Origin: Fluviicola taffensis DSM 16823 | GTDB lineage: Bacteria; Bacteroidota; Bacteroidia; Flavobacteriales_D; Crocinitomicaceae | Assembly (NCBI RefSeq): GCF_000194605.1 | Contig: NC_015321.1 | Location: forward strand, 1,240,001-1,304,000 | Direction: 5' to 3' | DNA: 64,000 bases | Program-made: the position numbers and the translations under genes | In this document: positions 42,067-47,952 of the stretch, one piece after another | How the letters are laid out: each line of letters starts with the position of its first letter | Numbering within the stretch: position 1 is the stretch's first letter | Notes under the pieces: model-generated | Seen by the model: only the letters and a program-made list of their open reading frames with translations | Told to the model about the DNA's origin: nothing | The model's database searches: none

Positions 42067-42269
42067 GAAAATTTCAAAGAATATCAGAAGAAAAATCACA
42101 AGAGCCTACCAAGGAACAATTGGTGCGTTACAAAGATTTTACCTCGCTTTCTCATAAATACGAGCGTTTGACGAAACGTCCTAAAAAACCTTTGTACAGA
42201 GATCCAAAATTGTTTTTGCTCCTGCTGATCATTGGATTGATGTTCCTATTGATCTTTTTAGAATCTTAA
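42063..42269 (+). CDS. Small single-helix membrane protein, possible sigma-factor partner
   Basis: 68 residues: a charged cytoplasmic region (1-48) and one C-terminal hydrophobic helix (LFLLLLIIGLMFLLIFL). It starts inside the sigma factor stop (ATGA), so it is translationally coupled. It is much smaller than known anti-sigma factors and has no recognised domain, but position and topology fit a tail-anchored regulator. Converges with the large secreted-protein gene with a four-base overlap. Confidence 0.65.
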   Translation: MRKFQRISEEKSQEPTKEQLVRYKDFTSLSHKYERLTKRPKKPLYRDPKLFLLLLIIGLMFLLIFLES

Positions 42270-45200
42270 AACCCTTCGATATCCAACTTCCGCATTGCTA
42301 TGAATGATTTAAGCACTCGTTCTCCAACACCTGGAACATCCACATGAATCAAGTAAACCCCACTTGCAACTGGAATACCGATATTATTAGTCAATGCCCA
42401 GTCTATAAAAGTAACATCATAATCCTTCTTAAATTGATTAACAAGCTTGCCTGAAGTAGTATAAATGGTAACTGTACATGTTTTAGGGAGATTGATAATT
42501 TTTATGCGATTATCGACTTTACTCCGCTCGTATTCGGAAAATGCATAGTAAGGATTTGGAACAACATTGATTAAATCCAATGCGCTTGCCAAAGCATCTC
42601 TACTTCCTGTCGTGGTTTGTAAATCATTCATCGACCAAGAATACATTGGTTTACCTCCATTAAGTCCCGTTGCTGTAAAATCAGCATATTGCTTGTTTAC
42701 TCGCAATTTCAATCGTGCTGTGGACTCCAAAACGCTATGACCTGGTGCTGTAATCGTGTTAGCAATCCACATCAAACTTGTATACAATTTCTTGTAGGAA
42801 GTATTTGTTGCTATTTGGAATTGATCGTAAACCCACGTGTTCGTGCCATCGTAATAAGGACAACCCTCATTGTTGATGTTTACTCCAAATACCCAAATCG
42901 GTTGGTTACCTCCATTTACATACAACCCATTTCCGTCTGTCTGTCTGCTTGATGGATTCCAAACCATGTCTGCTCCATTGTCTCCTCCTAAGAACGAATT
43001 CTCTCCAAAAGCCATGTGCAAACGTGCGCCTGTTTCCAAATCAATTGCATAACCTGGGAACCAACCCATACCTGTAGTTGGAGTTCCGTCAGGATTTCCA
43101 TTCTTGTCTACTGATGCGGATGCCCGAGGACGACCTGGTAAACCTCCTCCTTGATTCAAATTCGCATCGCGACCTAGTTCTACAACCACACAACGAGTCC
43201 ATTTTGTCTTATCTGGAGTCATAACGATATCTACGCTAGGTAACGATTTGATCGATGCATTAGTACGAGCAATCGGTATTCCTCCATAATTTGTCGGATA
43301 AGCCAATGGCATGAAATCACATTGGTAACCTGTCAACTTGTGTGGACCTACTCCCCCACCCAATAATTTGTTGTACTTCTCCTTTGGATCAAGACCTATC
43401 TCATCGGAGAAACAACATGGATTCAAATAACTCGCGCCTCCCCAAGTATCACAATCTGTTGCTTGAACAGGGGCATAAGTCCCCGTTCGTAACCAGTTTC
43501 TTGGTGTCAAGGATGCATCATCTTCTACAAAATCCAACCACCGCTTTGTGGAATCTGAATACGAAATCGACGAAGACAAGGGATCTGTGTACAAATAAAA
43601 AGCTGAATTAGGTGCTACAGGGTAGTAGTACTTATCTTGGAAAATCTCAATCGAAACTCCCCATTTGGGAACTACCTGCTCATTCCCTTGTTTAATCGTT
43701 ACATCAGATGTTACGGAATCCAATAAATTACCCCCTTCTGTATCATACCTGTTAATAACCCAACTAGATGTGTCAATTCCTTTAATCTCGGTAATTCCAT
43801 TTCCTGAAACACCAACATAATTACGGAATTTACACTCAAAGTAACCGCCTACAACATTCAAGGGATCAACAACTTTCACATTGATTGGACCGCCATTGTA
43901 GTCATACTCCAATTTATCTTTGAAGCCATTAGCTACAATCGCATCCTCAGATGCTGTTGTTAATTCCAAGGATCTAGAACCATTTCCTGTTCCGTCTAGA
44001 CGCGTAATACGTGGCGTAATTCCATAGGAAGCTAAATGCATGGTTCCCATCGATTCTGGTGACGGGTCATGAGGAATCAATTCCAATACTTTTACTTCGC
44101 CAATAGCAGCTTTTCGACTTCCCAAAAATGGTTTTTTCTGTCCGTCTAAAGCATTTGGATCTGTGGGATCATAGCTTTTATAATTGTTGTGAGCATAAGA
44201 TATCGCCATGTAATAATAGCGCTTGAAATTAATGAGTCTTCTATCTCCTGACGCGAATAAATCCTCTGTCACTCTAAAAGAGTGACGTATTCCTAAATCA
44301 GCCCCAACTACTTTTTCTACTGGAAAAGTAGCTAGCAAATTCTCATCAAATTCAAAATTTATTAATCGTTTTACTCCGTCCTTAATATCTACTTGAGCAA
44401 CTAATCGAGCCTTTGTTTGATCTTCCAAATCAGAAACACTCACATTCGATTTGTATAGCTGATAAATCAGATATCCTTGAAAGCGGTAATTCTTATCAGC
44501 AGTTGAATCTGTTGCAACAATCAAGGGATCAAACTCCATATAATCTTCCCGTTCATTATTTGAAGCCGAATTGTTCGAAAGATAAAGTATTAATTCATTC
44601 TTTAATTCCTGACCACTCATATCAGGAGCGTGCGGACCTTCTAATACGCGGAAGCAATTTTCAAAGAGGGCTTGAGCTTTATCATCAGCTACTCGCAAGG
44701 TATTTACAGATTCAAATGGACCACCACCTAATGATCTTGCCCAAACCATACCAACCGTAATGTTATTAACTGCACCTGGCTTTAATATAAACGGACCTGC
44801 AGATTGTAAAAACCGTCTGTCGTAAGGTAAATTATTTGCCGTTTCTTCTGTCCAATCAGGCTGTGGAATTCCACCTGTTCCCCAACCCAATGGATCAGTA
44901 TCATCTGGGAACATAAAATCACACGTTACACTTGGATTAACTGTTGGATCAGAAATATGACCATTACCTCCATAATAAAACGGCGTATTATCTTTCCATC
45001 TTCCTCTTAAAAAACAATAATAATGAAAAGCACTAGTTGGATCCGTTTGATTTGGACTCGTTCCTGCACCAGCATTTATGTAGTATAAAAATCGCCGCAT
45101 TCCAAAACGTTCATTATCCACAATACCATCTCCGTAACCGATTCCGTTCAGTGCTTCACCTGCACCAATCCCATAGCTATTATCGATAGAATCATTGTCT

Positions 45201-46282
45201 TGATAAGGACCTTCAAAAAAATCTACCCCAGCTGCTGGCGGATTTGCTCCATATCCATAAAACCCTTGATTTTCGCCATCGTAAGAATCTCCATTGTAGA
45301 AATATCCAAGGCCACGGCTAACGTCACAGCCCACATAATCATCAAAAGGATCACCCAATGCGCCATCAACAAAAACCCCGAAATAAGTTTCAAATAAAGT
45401 TTGCGTTCCACGATTAATCAATTCATAATTGTAGAAAGTCATGTTGTTAACATCATCATTCGTAGCAAATGCAAAAGCTTGCGCTCTAATTTCCATTCCA
45501 ATTGGTTCACCTTGTGATTCCGTATGAATATTTCCTTTATCATTCATCACCCACCACATATTGAAATCACCATATAGTGAAACTCGTCTATCTGTCTTAC
45601 AATTTTTCGTCCCATTAATGTCGTACCAAGGATAATCTCCTTCTTGCCACTCATATTCACCATCATTATCTCTGTCAAAAAAAGGTGCCAAGTTGTAATC
45701 TTGACCCTTTGAAACATCTCCATGAGCTGGCCAATTTTTAATAAAATCGGGAACCTGATAATTGGGGAAGTTTGTTGTCTGTAAGTTTGTTCCGTTTTGT
45801 TGGTCTAAAACACCCGCATTATACCAAGCGTCAAATTGTTTCACAACATCTTTACTCGAAGTGAAATGATTGTCGTATTTCAAACATTCATCAGCATCTA
45901 TTTCTGCGGTACCATTAGCTAGTGGACCCGTCCAATAATCCTGTCCTGTTCGGTAACGCAATGCTGCTAATTTCAATTGTCCATTCACATCTGTTCCACC
46001 AAGCCAAAGAGCTGAAGTGAAAAAACACATGATTTTCGAATTTTTAGGAATCTCATATTGCGAGAAATTTTGACCTGGAACTTGCCATAAATTACCTGCT
46101 GTATGAACCATAGCCCGCACATTATTGTAGTCTATGAAGGTTGTCTTGCTTGCTGGAGCACAACTCGCTGCTTTCGTTTGAATGGTTTTCTGAATCTTAC
46201 TCTCTCCAATATAAACCTGAGAAAACACTGATTTTGTTCCTAACAAAAAACAAATAATCACTAATACTCGCATTTCTTTCAT
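42266..46282 (-). CDS. Very large secreted protein with FlgD/T9SS-like C-terminal domain
   Basis: 1338 residues: signal peptide (MRVLVIICFLLGTKSVFSQ), a long body rich in Gly, Asn and aromatic residues with many Asp/Asn-Gly turns (DRDNDGEYEWQEGDYPWYD may bind calcium) and a C-terminal region with NVVPNPYYAFSEYERS, VTIYTTSGKLVNQFKKDYD and GIPVASGVYLIHVDVPG, a FlgD-like Ig/T9SS sorting domain that would anchor it at the cell surface. I recognise no enzyme domain. Homologues of this size with the same NVVPNPYYAFSEYE start of the tail are common in the phylum. Two ATGs (46282, 46273) are possible starts. Confidence 0.82.
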   Translation of the reverse strand: MKEMRVLVIICFLLGTKSVFSQVYIGESKIQKTIQTKAASCAPASKTTFIDYNNVRAMVHTAGNLWQVPGQNFSQYEIPKNSKIMCFFTSALWLGGTDVNGQLKLAALRYRTGQDYWTGPLANGTAEIDADECLKYDNHFTSSKDVVKQFDAWYNAGVLDQQNGTNLQTTNFPNYQVPDFIKNWPAHGDVSKGQDYNLAPFFDRDNDGEYEWQEGDYPWYDINGTKNCKTDRRVSLYGDFNMWWVMNDKGNIHTESQGEPIGMEIRAQAFAFATNDDVNNMTFYNYELINRGTQTLFETYFGVFVDGALGDPFDDYVGCDVSRGLGYFYNGDSYDGENQGFYGYGANPPAAGVDFFEGPYQDNDSIDNSYGIGAGEALNGIGYGDGIVDNERFGMRRFLYYINAGAGTSPNQTDPTSAFHYYCFLRGRWKDNTPFYYGGNGHISDPTVNPSVTCDFMFPDDTDPLGWGTGGIPQPDWTEETANNLPYDRRFLQSAGPFILKPGAVNNITVGMVWARSLGGGPFESVNTLRVADDKAQALFENCFRVLEGPHAPDMSGQELKNELILYLSNNSASNNEREDYMEFDPLIVATDSTADKNYRFQGYLIYQLYKSNVSVSDLEDQTKARLVAQVDIKDGVKRLINFEFDENLLATFPVEKVVGADLGIRHSFRVTEDLFASGDRRLINFKRYYYMAISYAHNNYKSYDPTDPNALDGQKKPFLGSRKAAIGEVKVLELIPHDPSPESMGTMHLASYGITPRITRLDGTGNGSRSLELTTASEDAIVANGFKDKLEYDYNGGPINVKVVDPLNVVGGYFECKFRNYVGVSGNGITEIKGIDTSSWVINRYDTEGGNLLDSVTSDVTIKQGNEQVVPKWGVSIEIFQDKYYYPVAPNSAFYLYTDPLSSSISYSDSTKRWLDFVEDDASLTPRNWLRTGTYAPVQATDCDTWGGASYLNPCCFSDEIGLDPKEKYNKLLGGGVGPHKLTGYQCDFMPLAYPTNYGGIPIARTNASIKSLPSVDIVMTPDKTKWTRCVVVELGRDANLNQGGGLPGRPRASASVDKNGNPDGTPTTGMGWFPGYAIDLETGARLHMAFGENSFLGGDNGADMVWNPSSRQTDGNGLYVNGGNQPIWVFGVNINNEGCPYYDGTNTWVYDQFQIATNTSYKKLYTSLMWIANTITAPGHSVLESTARLKLRVNKQYADFTATGLNGGKPMYSWSMNDLQTTTGSRDALASALDLINVVPNPYYAFSEYERSKVDNRIKIINLPKTCTVTIYTTSGKLVNQFKKDYDVTFIDWALTNNIGIPVASGVYLIHVDVPGVGERVLKSFIAMRKLDIEGF

Positions 46283-46304
46283 AAATAGTTGGAGTGAAGA
46301 TACT

Positions 46305-46312
46305 CAAAAATA
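46305..46312 (-). promoter_or_regulatory. -7 box of the large secreted-protein gene
   Basis: On the minus strand TATTTTTG lies 22 bases before the start codon at 46282. The nearest -33 TTG gives a 23-base spacer and sits within the ncRNA terminator hairpin. Confidence 0.45.
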
Positions 46313-46319
46313 TACAGCT

Positions 46320-46514
46320 ATAAAAAAGCAGAATACAAGGAAACGAATTGCCTTATATTCTGCTTATCTAACCGACTATGGGTAATTTATGTAGCGTAAA
46401 AGTAATTACTCCAGAAGGAAACGAAAACCAACTTACCTAAAACTAACCTATTATGAAACAACCCTTCTGTGAGTAAAACTTTGCTTTGAACAACAGATAT
46501 AATGTGTAATCTGA
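46320..46514 (-). ncRNA. Candidate small RNA, about 195 bases, rod-like fold
   Basis: The 386-base gap 46283-46668 holds a complete minus-strand transcription unit without an ORF: promoter at 46550-46520, about 150 bases, and a terminator hairpin ending in six Ts. Inside, complementary arms (plus-strand 46393-46418 and 46463-46486) form an interrupted rod: CAGAAGG/CCTTCTG, a one-base bulge, TTACTC/GAGTAA, a small internal loop, AAAGT/ACTTT, then AGC/GCT. The reading frames across it are short and lack start sites with support. It could be a trans-acting sRNA, a 6S-like RNA, or the long leader of the secreted-protein gene. Confidence 0.5.
46326..46365 (-). terminator. Intrinsic terminator of the candidate small RNA
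   Basis: On the minus strand AAGCAGAATATAAGG pairs with CCTTGTATTCTGCTT (one mismatch) around ten bases, followed by TTTTTTATA. It lies upstream of the secreted-protein start, so it ends a transcript that began further right. Confidence 0.8.
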
Positions 46515-46519
46515 TAGAG

Positions 46520-46550
46520 CAAAAGTAGCTTTAGAACTGTTGTAAACAAA
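46520..46550 (-). promoter_or_regulatory. Promoter of the candidate small RNA
   Basis: On the minus strand TTTG (46550-46547), 19 bases, then TACTTTTG (46527-46520): an exact consensus match, lying over 230 bases from any start codon. Confidence 0.75.
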
Positions 46551-46668
46551 TACCTGAAAAGGTTGTTTTTGACTACTTGGAAGAAGGTAAGGGGAGTAAC
46601 GGAATTTTTGAGAGACTGAAGACAGCAGACCAAAGAACAACTATTTTATATCTAAGGTCTTAAGTCTT

Positions 46669-47952
46669 TTAACGCTTCCAGCAAATCACTTTCTCGAAAT
46701 CAATCAACAACTGATAGATTCCATTGAACTTGTTGAAACTCAATTCTTCGTAAGTATCATACACATCGTGGTAATGCTTATTTGGTCCCATGGTATACAT
46801 GAAGAATGCTGGAACACCTTTTTGAGTAAAGAAATAATGATCTGAATTGGCTGCTGCTCCTCTCGAAGCCACTTTTGGCAAATATTGTTGCTTTTCATTG
46901 ATGGATTTCAACACTTCAAACTGCTCTGGAAATAAGGTCGCATTTACAACTGTTGCACCTTCTTCTCCACTTCCCATAATATCGAGATTGAACAAAAACT
47001 GAATATCTTTTAATGGAAAAACAGGATTCTCAGTGTAATATTTACTTCCGAGCAAACCTACTTCTTCTCCAGCAAATGCGATGAAAACAATGTTTACATT
47101 CGATGGATTTTTCACGTAATAACGAGCCATTTCCAATAAGAGAGCAGTTCCTGAAGCATTATCATTTCCACCTGGGAAATAAGCTTCTTGTCCCATTTGA
47201 CCGAGATGATCGTAATGTGCGCTGAAGACGAAATAGTTCTTCGATTTCTTCTTTGCAGGAACATAAGCAATGACATTTCTTGCCGTGTGATTCACAACCT
47301 TCGCATCTATTTTCACTTTGAAAACCCACTCATCCAATGATGCATCTAAAGCACTTGACTGAACTTGAAGTAATGCAAATTGGCGCTGTTCCTGACTCAC
47401 ACTCCACGTAAATTTTGTGTCCGTCAATTCAATAATTGGCATGGATGAACCCAAACTTTTTGCCAATTCTTGGGCTTTTTTTAAGGTATCTCCTTTCCAC
47501 AAGCTAAAATGAAATGCAAAACTCACTCCTGCTTTCGAACCACCTATTGATGCCTGACTAATCTTATTTTTCAAACTTTTCGGTTTGAATAAATCATCTG
47601 TGGTGATGCGAAAAACTCTTAGACTGTCTTTGTAAAACATCGGACAAGAAGGATCAACCACAAACTCTTTTCCAGGGACAAGCACTTTTCCATTTACGGA
47701 AACAGCCATGTTATTTGAGAATGTATTGACTTTAAATTGAAAAGGTTGAAAAGGAGTGTTCTTAAAAAATTGACATCCCATTTTCTCGAATTCATCAGCA
47801 ATAAAACTTGAAGCAATTGAATCACCTCCATTCACATATCCGCGACCATGAAATGATGGAGAACATAATTTTTCAGCGGTCAAACGACCTTGCTCAACTT
47901 GAGCAAAACCAAGTACTGGAAGAAAGAACAGAAGGTGAAGAATCTTATGCAT
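46669..47952 (-). CDS. M28-family zinc aminopeptidase, secreted
   Basis: 427 residues with a signal peptide (MHKILHLLFFLPVLGFAQ). The M28 metal site is complete: His246 and Asp248 (SAHYDHLG), Asp264 (GGNDNASG), Glu296-Glu297 (AGEEVGLLG), Asp324 (FNLDIMG) and His395 (NKHYHDVYD). About 200 residues before the catalytic part carry a PA-like insert. Likely hydrolyses peptides in the periplasm or outside. Overlaps the Glu-rich gene upstream by eight bases, so the two form an operon. Confidence 0.92.
   Translation of the reverse strand: MHKILHLLFFLPVLGFAQVEQGRLTAEKLCSPSFHGRGYVNGGDSIASSFIADEFEKMGCQFFKNTPFQPFQFKVNTFSNNMAVSVNGKVLVPGKEFVVDPSCPMFYKDSLRVFRITTDDLFKPKSLKNKISQASIGGSKAGVSFAFHFSLWKGDTLKKAQELAKSLGSSMPIIELTDTKFTWSVSQEQRQFALLQVQSSALDASLDEWVFKVKIDAKVVNHTARNVIAYVPAKKKSKNYFVFSAHYDHLGQMGQEAYFPGGNDNASGTALLLEMARYYVKNPSNVNIVFIAFAGEEVGLLGSKYYTENPVFPLKDIQFLFNLDIMGSGEEGATVVNATLFPEQFEVLKSINEKQQYLPKVASRGAAANSDHYFFTQKGVPAFFMYTMGPNKHYHDVYDTYEELSFNKFNGIYQLLIDFEKVICWKR

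Follow-up and report, generated by a model that had tools for sequence, protein, structure and literature searches.

Genomic context and predicted transcription unit

The window, meaning the whole stretch of 64,000 nucleotides that was analysed, belongs to the genome of the freshwater bacterium Fluviicola taffensis DSM 16823, which is a single contig of 4,633,577 bp. On the minus strand of the window, a short unit lies between the gene of an M28 peptidase (46669-47952, minus strand, PF04389) and the gene of a 1338-aa protein that has no Pfam match (42266-46282, minus strand). The original prediction held that this gap contains a complete unit from promoter to terminator, free of open reading frames, which would yield a small RNA of about 195 nt. 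Comparison with related genomes supports such an RNA at the level of sequence.

The promoter described in the original prediction is present: TTTG-N19-TACTTTTG, on the minus strand at 46520-46550, has the form of a sigma-A promoter, with TTTG at 46550-46547, a 19-nt spacer and TACTTTTG at 46527-46520. The -7 box, TAC[T/A]TTTG, was found in all seven genomes that carry the unit, and the -33 box is TTTG in three of the seven and TTTT or TTTC in the other four. A sigma-A -7 box of the form TAnnTTTG is reported for Flavobacterium psychrophilum in the available part of PMC9723704. The promoter motif alone is not above chance: it has two matches in 64 kb against 0.81 expected, and at least two were found in 21 of 100 shuffles. 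A conserved upstream block, CAAGTA..AAAAACAACCTTTTC.GGTATTT (46548-46579, minus strand), overlaps the -33 box and is near-invariant in the seven aligned genomes. Its main part has no second match in the window with up to three mismatches allowed, and it is possibly a regulator site or a UP-like element.

At the other end of the unit, the expected intrinsic terminator lies at 46322-46365 on the minus strand. Its arms (46365-46351 and 46340-46326) form a 15-bp stem with one G-U pair, followed by a run of six T (46327-46322). It was missed by a simple hairpin scan, probably because that scan allows loops of up to 8 nt and this one has 10. The predicted small RNA between promoter and terminator is about 193 nt long (46322-46514, minus strand), with its start placed by the promoter; its fold and its conservation in seven genomes support it.

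A 195-nt RNA from this unit has a minimum free energy (MFE) of -49.4 kcal/mol, compared with a mean of -31.6 for shuffled sequences (z = -4.8; none of 200 shuffles was as low). Read from the 5' end on the minus strand, it starts with a small hairpin, CAGA..TCTG (46494-46513), which is absent from G013 and unformed in the MFE folds of G009 and G003. It is followed by a conserved stem, whose 5' arm (46463-46474) and 3' arm (46408-46418) form one covarying helix. This stem encloses a near-invariant apical loop (46420-46462), 43 nt long in the window, that holds GGUWAG repeats and UUUCAUAAU. Between the stem and the terminator lies a conserved linker, UACCCAUAGUCGGUUAGAU (46366-46384, minus strand), which up to ..GGUUAGA is identical in six of the seven genomes and is a variant in G013.

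The unit does not seem to encode a protein, again in line with the original prediction. In the window it is overlapped by two frames of 60 and 65 aa that start with TTG; in G007 no listed frame of at least 50 aa covers it. ORF lists over the unit, with 50 aa as the cut-off, cover these two genomes. Across the alignment, indels shift the reading frames of the unit, and a coding product was rejected because the frames are not kept across genomes. A plus-strand peptide from a ATGAAACAAC start was also rejected; its versions in the seven genomes are dissimilar and range from 7 to 30 aa.

Conservation and covariation in the genus

A DNA search with the intergenic sequence covered 99 genomes, the window's own and 98 relatives. 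It found the unit in six of 13 congeners with E-values from 2e-76 to 3.3e-22, and the next match had E = 0.001. In all, the unit occupies the same locus, between the M28 gene and the 1338-aa gene, in seven of 14 genomes of the genus. The distance from the -7 box to the end of the terminator is 195-198 nt in five of the seven, 212 nt in G003 and 157 nt in G013. The apical loop also varies in length, since G013 lacks 15 nt (one repeat) and G001 has 2 nt more. The parts of the unit that are most conserved in sequence are the loop and the linker, not the helices, and the arms of the terminator vary.

Covariation was evaluated on an alignment of seven sequences (A3), using a structure from one of them and 500 shuffles. 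Changes on both sides of a pair were seen in 10 of 25 pairs, compared with 4.6 in shuffled alignments, and in 19 alignment cells, compared with 6.1; none of the 500 shuffles was as high. By region, these pairs are five of 11 in the conserved stem and five of the 14 modelled in the terminator. Of the cells, 91.4% were paired, compared with 83.3% in shuffles (none of 500 as high), and the covariation score was above all 500. One of the five measures did not separate the alignment from its control: the number of further pair types was reached by 257 of 500 shuffles. Six controls in which the structure was slid along the alignment had 50-56% of cells paired, all far lower. The shuffle control does not give a probability for related sequences.

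Based on this alignment, there is good support for two predicted helices, a stem of about 11 bp which closes the loop and the terminator. The compensatory changes and the conservation of promoter and hairpin in close relatives that the original prediction named as its check were thus found, in 10 of 25 pairs and seven genomes. G007 adds a case in which the unit is separated from its neighbor: a 2-kb insert with an eCIS_core gene parts the unit from the M28 gene, and the unit is intact. The gene in this insert encodes 660 aa with an eCIS_core domain (PF13699) and lies at L032:2827-4809, between the M28 gene and the unit.

Comparison with the 6S model

The original prediction described a rod-like fold with internal arms forming an interrupted helix, and suggested that the RNA might be 6S-like. 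The arms do pair as described, with 22 pairs in the window copy's MFE fold, and this long interrupted helix with its internal opening speaks for a 6S-like RNA, one that would bind RNA polymerase by imitating an open promoter. The rod's lower half, however, is found in the window copy alone. Its helix is unformed in G008, G003 and G013, while other extensions take its place in G007 and G009. Conservation is limited to an upper stem of about 11 bp; the long rod with a central bubble is not kept, and the conserved feature is the sequence of a loop rather than a bubble flanked by helices.

Searches against Rfam point the same way. No family matched the unit at the gathering threshold when the window was searched, and a cmscan of the unit against 4227 Rfam models at E <= 10 gave three eukaryotic families only and no 6S. 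Neither RF00013 nor RF01685 matched anywhere in the genome at E <= 10. In 14 control genomes, RF00013 matched eight, four of them above the cut-off, and RF01685 matched four, none above the cut-off, so a clear positive control was lacking for the RF01685 search. A wide distribution would be expected of a 6S RNA, and this RNA was found in only seven of 240 genomes of the family. Since the rod is not conserved and neither 6S model matches the genome, the 6S suggestion was dropped, and we regard it as hardly credible.

Relation to the downstream gene

The original prediction left two options for the terminator, which either ends an independent RNA or acts as an attenuator for the 1338-aa gene. 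As an attenuator, the unit would be the 5' leader of this secreted-protein gene, and its terminator would set the read-through from the promoter at 46520-46550. The arrangement of the locus is compatible with this: the unit is directly upstream of the 1338-aa gene in all seven genomes that carry it, the distance from the end of the T-run to the ATG is 39 nt in the window and 40 nt in the other six, and unit and gene are jointly absent at the locus in G006.

The sequence past the terminator suggests otherwise. The motif TATMTTCA occurs 19 nt past the T-run in all seven genomes, with a mostly variable spacer between them. In the window this gives a putative promoter, TTTT-N19-TATCTTCA (46295-46325, minus strand), whose TTTT is within the T-run of the terminator. 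Because T-run, 19-nt spacing and TATMTTCA together have the spacing of a sigma-A promoter, in which the T-run would be the -33 box, we infer that the 1338-aa gene likely has a promoter of its own downstream of the terminator. This favors an independent small RNA over an attenuator. Three genomes of the genus (G005, G011 and G004) also keep a relative of the 1338-aa gene after the M28 gene without the unit. The arms of the terminator vary while loop and linker are fixed, and no conserved antiterminator pairing was seen by eye. Pairing of the loop with the start of the 1338-aa gene was no better than that of shuffled loops in any of the seven genomes. Of the two options, then, the independent RNA is the one favored; attenuation is the weaker one and, given the gene's likely own promoter and its occurrence without the unit, quite improbable.

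We also considered whether the region may be conserved simply as intergenic DNA that comprises the M28 gene's end and the downstream gene's promoter but specifies no functional small RNA. Two gene boundaries do meet here, and the conserved blocks are, by eye, partly promoter-like. However, neither promoter accounts for the covarying stem, invariant loop and linker located between the two, and the unit is kept in G007 with the M28 gene 2 kb away. This explanation is very unlikely.

Distribution, and possible gain and loss

At E <= 0.01, a covariance model of the unit had matches in seven of the family's 240 genomes, each of them a member of the genus, and at E <= 0.1 in nine of the order's 399 genomes; both scans used stricter filters by which weak matches may be lost. 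The nine are the seven Fluviicola genomes, G074 (discussed below) and, as the one other genome at this threshold, G111. The G111 match (E = 0.046) was dropped as chance, the core being absent on inspection. One copy of the unit was found per genome. An exact pattern for the loop matched five public records, of which three are named Fluviicola, one is Flavobacteriales bacterium UBA7666 and one is Glaciecola. The last, CP034120.1, is named Glaciecola amylolytica, a gammaproteobacterium by taxonomy; the record matches G003 of the window's genus and is probably mislabelled. Phage records gave no match to a 501-base query.

Within the genus, the genomes without the unit differ in what follows the M28 gene. 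The 3.7 kb that follow it in G010 and G012 contain neither the unit nor any relative of the 1338-aa gene. In G006 the M28 gene is followed by a DNA_alkylation gene, and the 3.7 kb there lack the unit as well as the 1338-aa gene and the sigma-factor gene. The contig of G002 stops at the M28 gene, hence the locus is uninformative there. In an M28 tree of 13 genomes (G004 was left out), the unit-bearing genomes together with G002 and G006 form one group with support 100/99, and G006 is nested beside G003. This tree fits one gain and one loss by deletion. A count of label changes on the tree gave three for the unit, with the uninformative G002 scored as a row of another group.

In all six unit-bearing relatives (L031-L036), the contig ends inside the relative of the 1338-aa gene, four times near residue 800; in G003, which is one contig, the remainder of the gene is found at the start of the record. 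Repeats of at least 25 nt were looked for inside the window's 1338-aa gene and none were found.

Repeats and start-codon complementarity in the loop

The motif GGTWAG occurs three times in the window's unit, compared with 0.23 in shuffles. There are three copies in five of the seven units, for which shuffles give 0.15-0.34, two in G009 and one in G013, compared with 0.10-0.34 in shuffles over all seven. CsrB-type RNAs titrate CsrA, and the GGUWAG repeats may likewise capture an RNA-binding protein (of the RRM kind, for instance), so that the RNA would be a sponge. Titration of such a protein is the main alternative to base pairing within the trans-acting small-RNA reading. Copy numbers far above shuffles speak for it, as do the loss of one repeat in the 15 nt missing from G013 and the two and three copies of GGTWAG in two G074 units that were tested. 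Against this, the count in G013 is unexceptional (a fraction of 0.093 of shuffles was as high), and the invariant part of the loop extends beyond the repeats. We consider the sponge rather unlikely.

Next to the repeats, the loop carries an anti-start-codon motif, UUUCAUAA, and its segment UUUCAUAAU is the reverse complement of AUUAUGAAA. Matches were evaluated on 348 starts from the window and 400 kb of the genome, among which ATGAAA is the commonest gene opening (26%). At 75 of the 348 starts, a 7-mer spanning the ATG matches the loop perfectly, compared with a mean of 6.7 for shuffled loops, and two of 300 shuffles were as high; among internal ATGs, 65 of 2171 had such a 7-mer. Matches of 8 nt across the ATG were found at 30 starts (10 of 300 shuffles as high) and of 9 nt at 12 starts (5 of 300). 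This match at start codons is owed mostly to the high frequency of ATGAAA. By a crude rule, 32 of the 75 matching starts open signal-like N-termini, compared with 64 of the 273 others, and by eye 10 of the 12 starts with 9-mers open signal- or lipoprotein-like proteins.

Loop matches anywhere in the start region stood out less for 7-, 8- and 9-mers (22, 49 and 59 of 300 shuffles as high), and for the remaining loop, matches upstream of starts were not in excess (83 and 88 of 300). The 18-nt complement of the anti-start segment was not enriched in the seven genomes, with 77 matches, seven units included, compared with 89 for the control. A looser 14-nt pattern with one mismatch matched 236 of 240 genomes, with nine in G000 compared with 46 for the control, and was useless. 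The duplex energy of loop and starts was marginally better than for shuffled loops (three of 58 as low; four of 58 for the difference between starts and coding sequence), and the duplex energy of the linker, with one shuffle only, was uninformative. The mean unpaired probability in the seven genomes was 0.50-0.66 for the loop and 0.26-0.63 for the linker, so the loop is predicted to be only partly open.

A possible wider class

In G074 and G063, which belong to a different family of the order, two tandem terminator-ended units lie behind tRNA-Phe (L134:1286-1592; L138; L137). Their cores are AGGTTAGTTTTCATAACTGATTAGTTTGGTTAGTTG and AGGTAAGTTT[AT]CATAATAGGTAA.GTAAGTTA. The locus occurs twice in G074, and in the second copy, at 79% identity, the second core has diverged and lacks 4 nt of the unit B core. 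Unit A has a nearly invariant core, and in all three copies the two sides of its terminator stem, by eye, vary in step; unit B is more variable.

Compared with the Fluviicola core, unit B scores 33-35 and unit A 28-29, which one to seven of 1000 shuffles reached, or two to 13 with the full unit as query. In a sample of 14,206 windows from the own genome, the best score outside the unit was 28, and in our judgement scores of 33-35 could arise by chance over hundreds of genomes. With a per-genome E-value of 0.007 and 399 genomes scanned, the covariance match of G074 is not significant by this measure alone. We judge the likeness of the cores to be suggestive and, for the space searched, not significant. 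The tandem arrangement, the covarying terminator stems, the copies in two genomes and the near-invariant core of unit A are likewise suggestive of a link.

A pattern, AGGTWAGTTTN{0,26}GTWAGTTR, written from the Fluviicola and G074/G063 units themselves, was used to scan more genomes. In 399 genomes of the order it matched 14 places: five in Fluviicola, five in G074/G063 and four others, of which two are in long antisense frames, one is at a gene junction on inspection and one is in a low-complexity array. The array consists of intergenic GTTAGTTATGTTAGTT-like units (L152; G078:C190:4481-4517 and downstream). In 395 genomes of the class, the pattern matched 13 places, two in Fluviicola, and 10 of the other 11 are in frames of at least 196 codons. 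The pattern is not over-represented, as a reversed control matched more places in the scans of both order and class.

It is conceivable, though unlikely, that the Fluviicola RNA and the tandem RNAs of G074 and G063 belong to one wider Bacteroidota class. In such a class, the core of GGUWAGUU repeats beside UUU(U)CAUAA(U) would be a generic anti-start-codon element that damps translation of many mRNAs starting with ATGAAA, mainly those of secreted proteins, in bacteria that largely lack Shine-Dalgarno pairing.

Proposed function

The unit has its own promoter and terminator, no conserved frame and compensatory changes, and a structured small-RNA gene at this locus is, judged by sequence comparison, highly probable. 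The RNA looks like a new, narrowly distributed bacterial small regulatory RNA. Our overall reading, held with moderate confidence, is an independent trans-acting non-coding small RNA of about 193 nt with its own predicted sigma-A promoter and intrinsic terminator.

By this reading, the sigma-A promoter would start the transcript and the intrinsic terminator would end it, and the stem would present the loop with its GGUWAG repeats and UUUCAUAAU. The RNA would then regulate in trans, which we consider probable. Its likeliest action would be pairing of the loop with many mRNAs around their translation starts, frequently mRNAs that encode secreted proteins or lipoproteins; start-codon pairing as the mechanism is put forward tentatively. 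The phylum mostly lacks Shine-Dalgarno pairing, and the near-constant loop gives a testable proposal for how small RNAs may locate start regions without it. Altogether, the unit adds a well-supported structured RNA to a lineage in which, in our impression, few small RNAs have been described.

Comparison with known systems

Sponge RNAs of the CsrB/RsmZ type share with the unit a short motif repeated in loop positions. Their motif is GGA, whereas that of the unit is GGUWAG, and its partner protein is putative. With 6S-Flavo RNA (RF01685; PMC2864571, as far as its available part describes it) and RF00013, the unit has in common only an approximate length and, in the window copy, a rod-like MFE fold; it differs in having no covariance match to them, a rod that is not conserved and a narrow distribution.

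Titles and abstract openings of the open-licence literature gave no description of the unit RNA, and the nearest published systems found there, as far as the available text goes, are Rfp18 (PMC9723704) and FopS/GibS (PMC11697453). According to the accessible part of PMC9723704, Rfp18 is, like the unit, an independent flavobacterial small RNA with a strong predicted fold that is conserved within a genus, and metalloprotease and adhesin mRNAs are its predicted targets in Flavobacterium psychrophilum. It comes from Flavobacterium, which is another family, and was compared with the unit by that partial description rather than by sequence.

FopS and GibS of Bacteroides thetaiotaomicron are described in the accessible part of PMC11697453 as terminator-ended trans-acting RNAs with a conserved seed. 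The same text credits FopS with 14 paralogues, a single-stranded seed at the 5' end and an Rfam entry, whereas the unit has one copy per genome and its conserved segment is in an apical loop. Among the 4227 models covered, the cmscan of the unit to E = 10 listed no FopS-like family. GibS pairs with translation initiation regions and FopS represses a susC mRNA, as stated in that part of PMC11697453. On this partial description, the unit is like them in being a terminator-ended Bacteroidota RNA, and for the unit both action in trans and pairing at starts are proposed.
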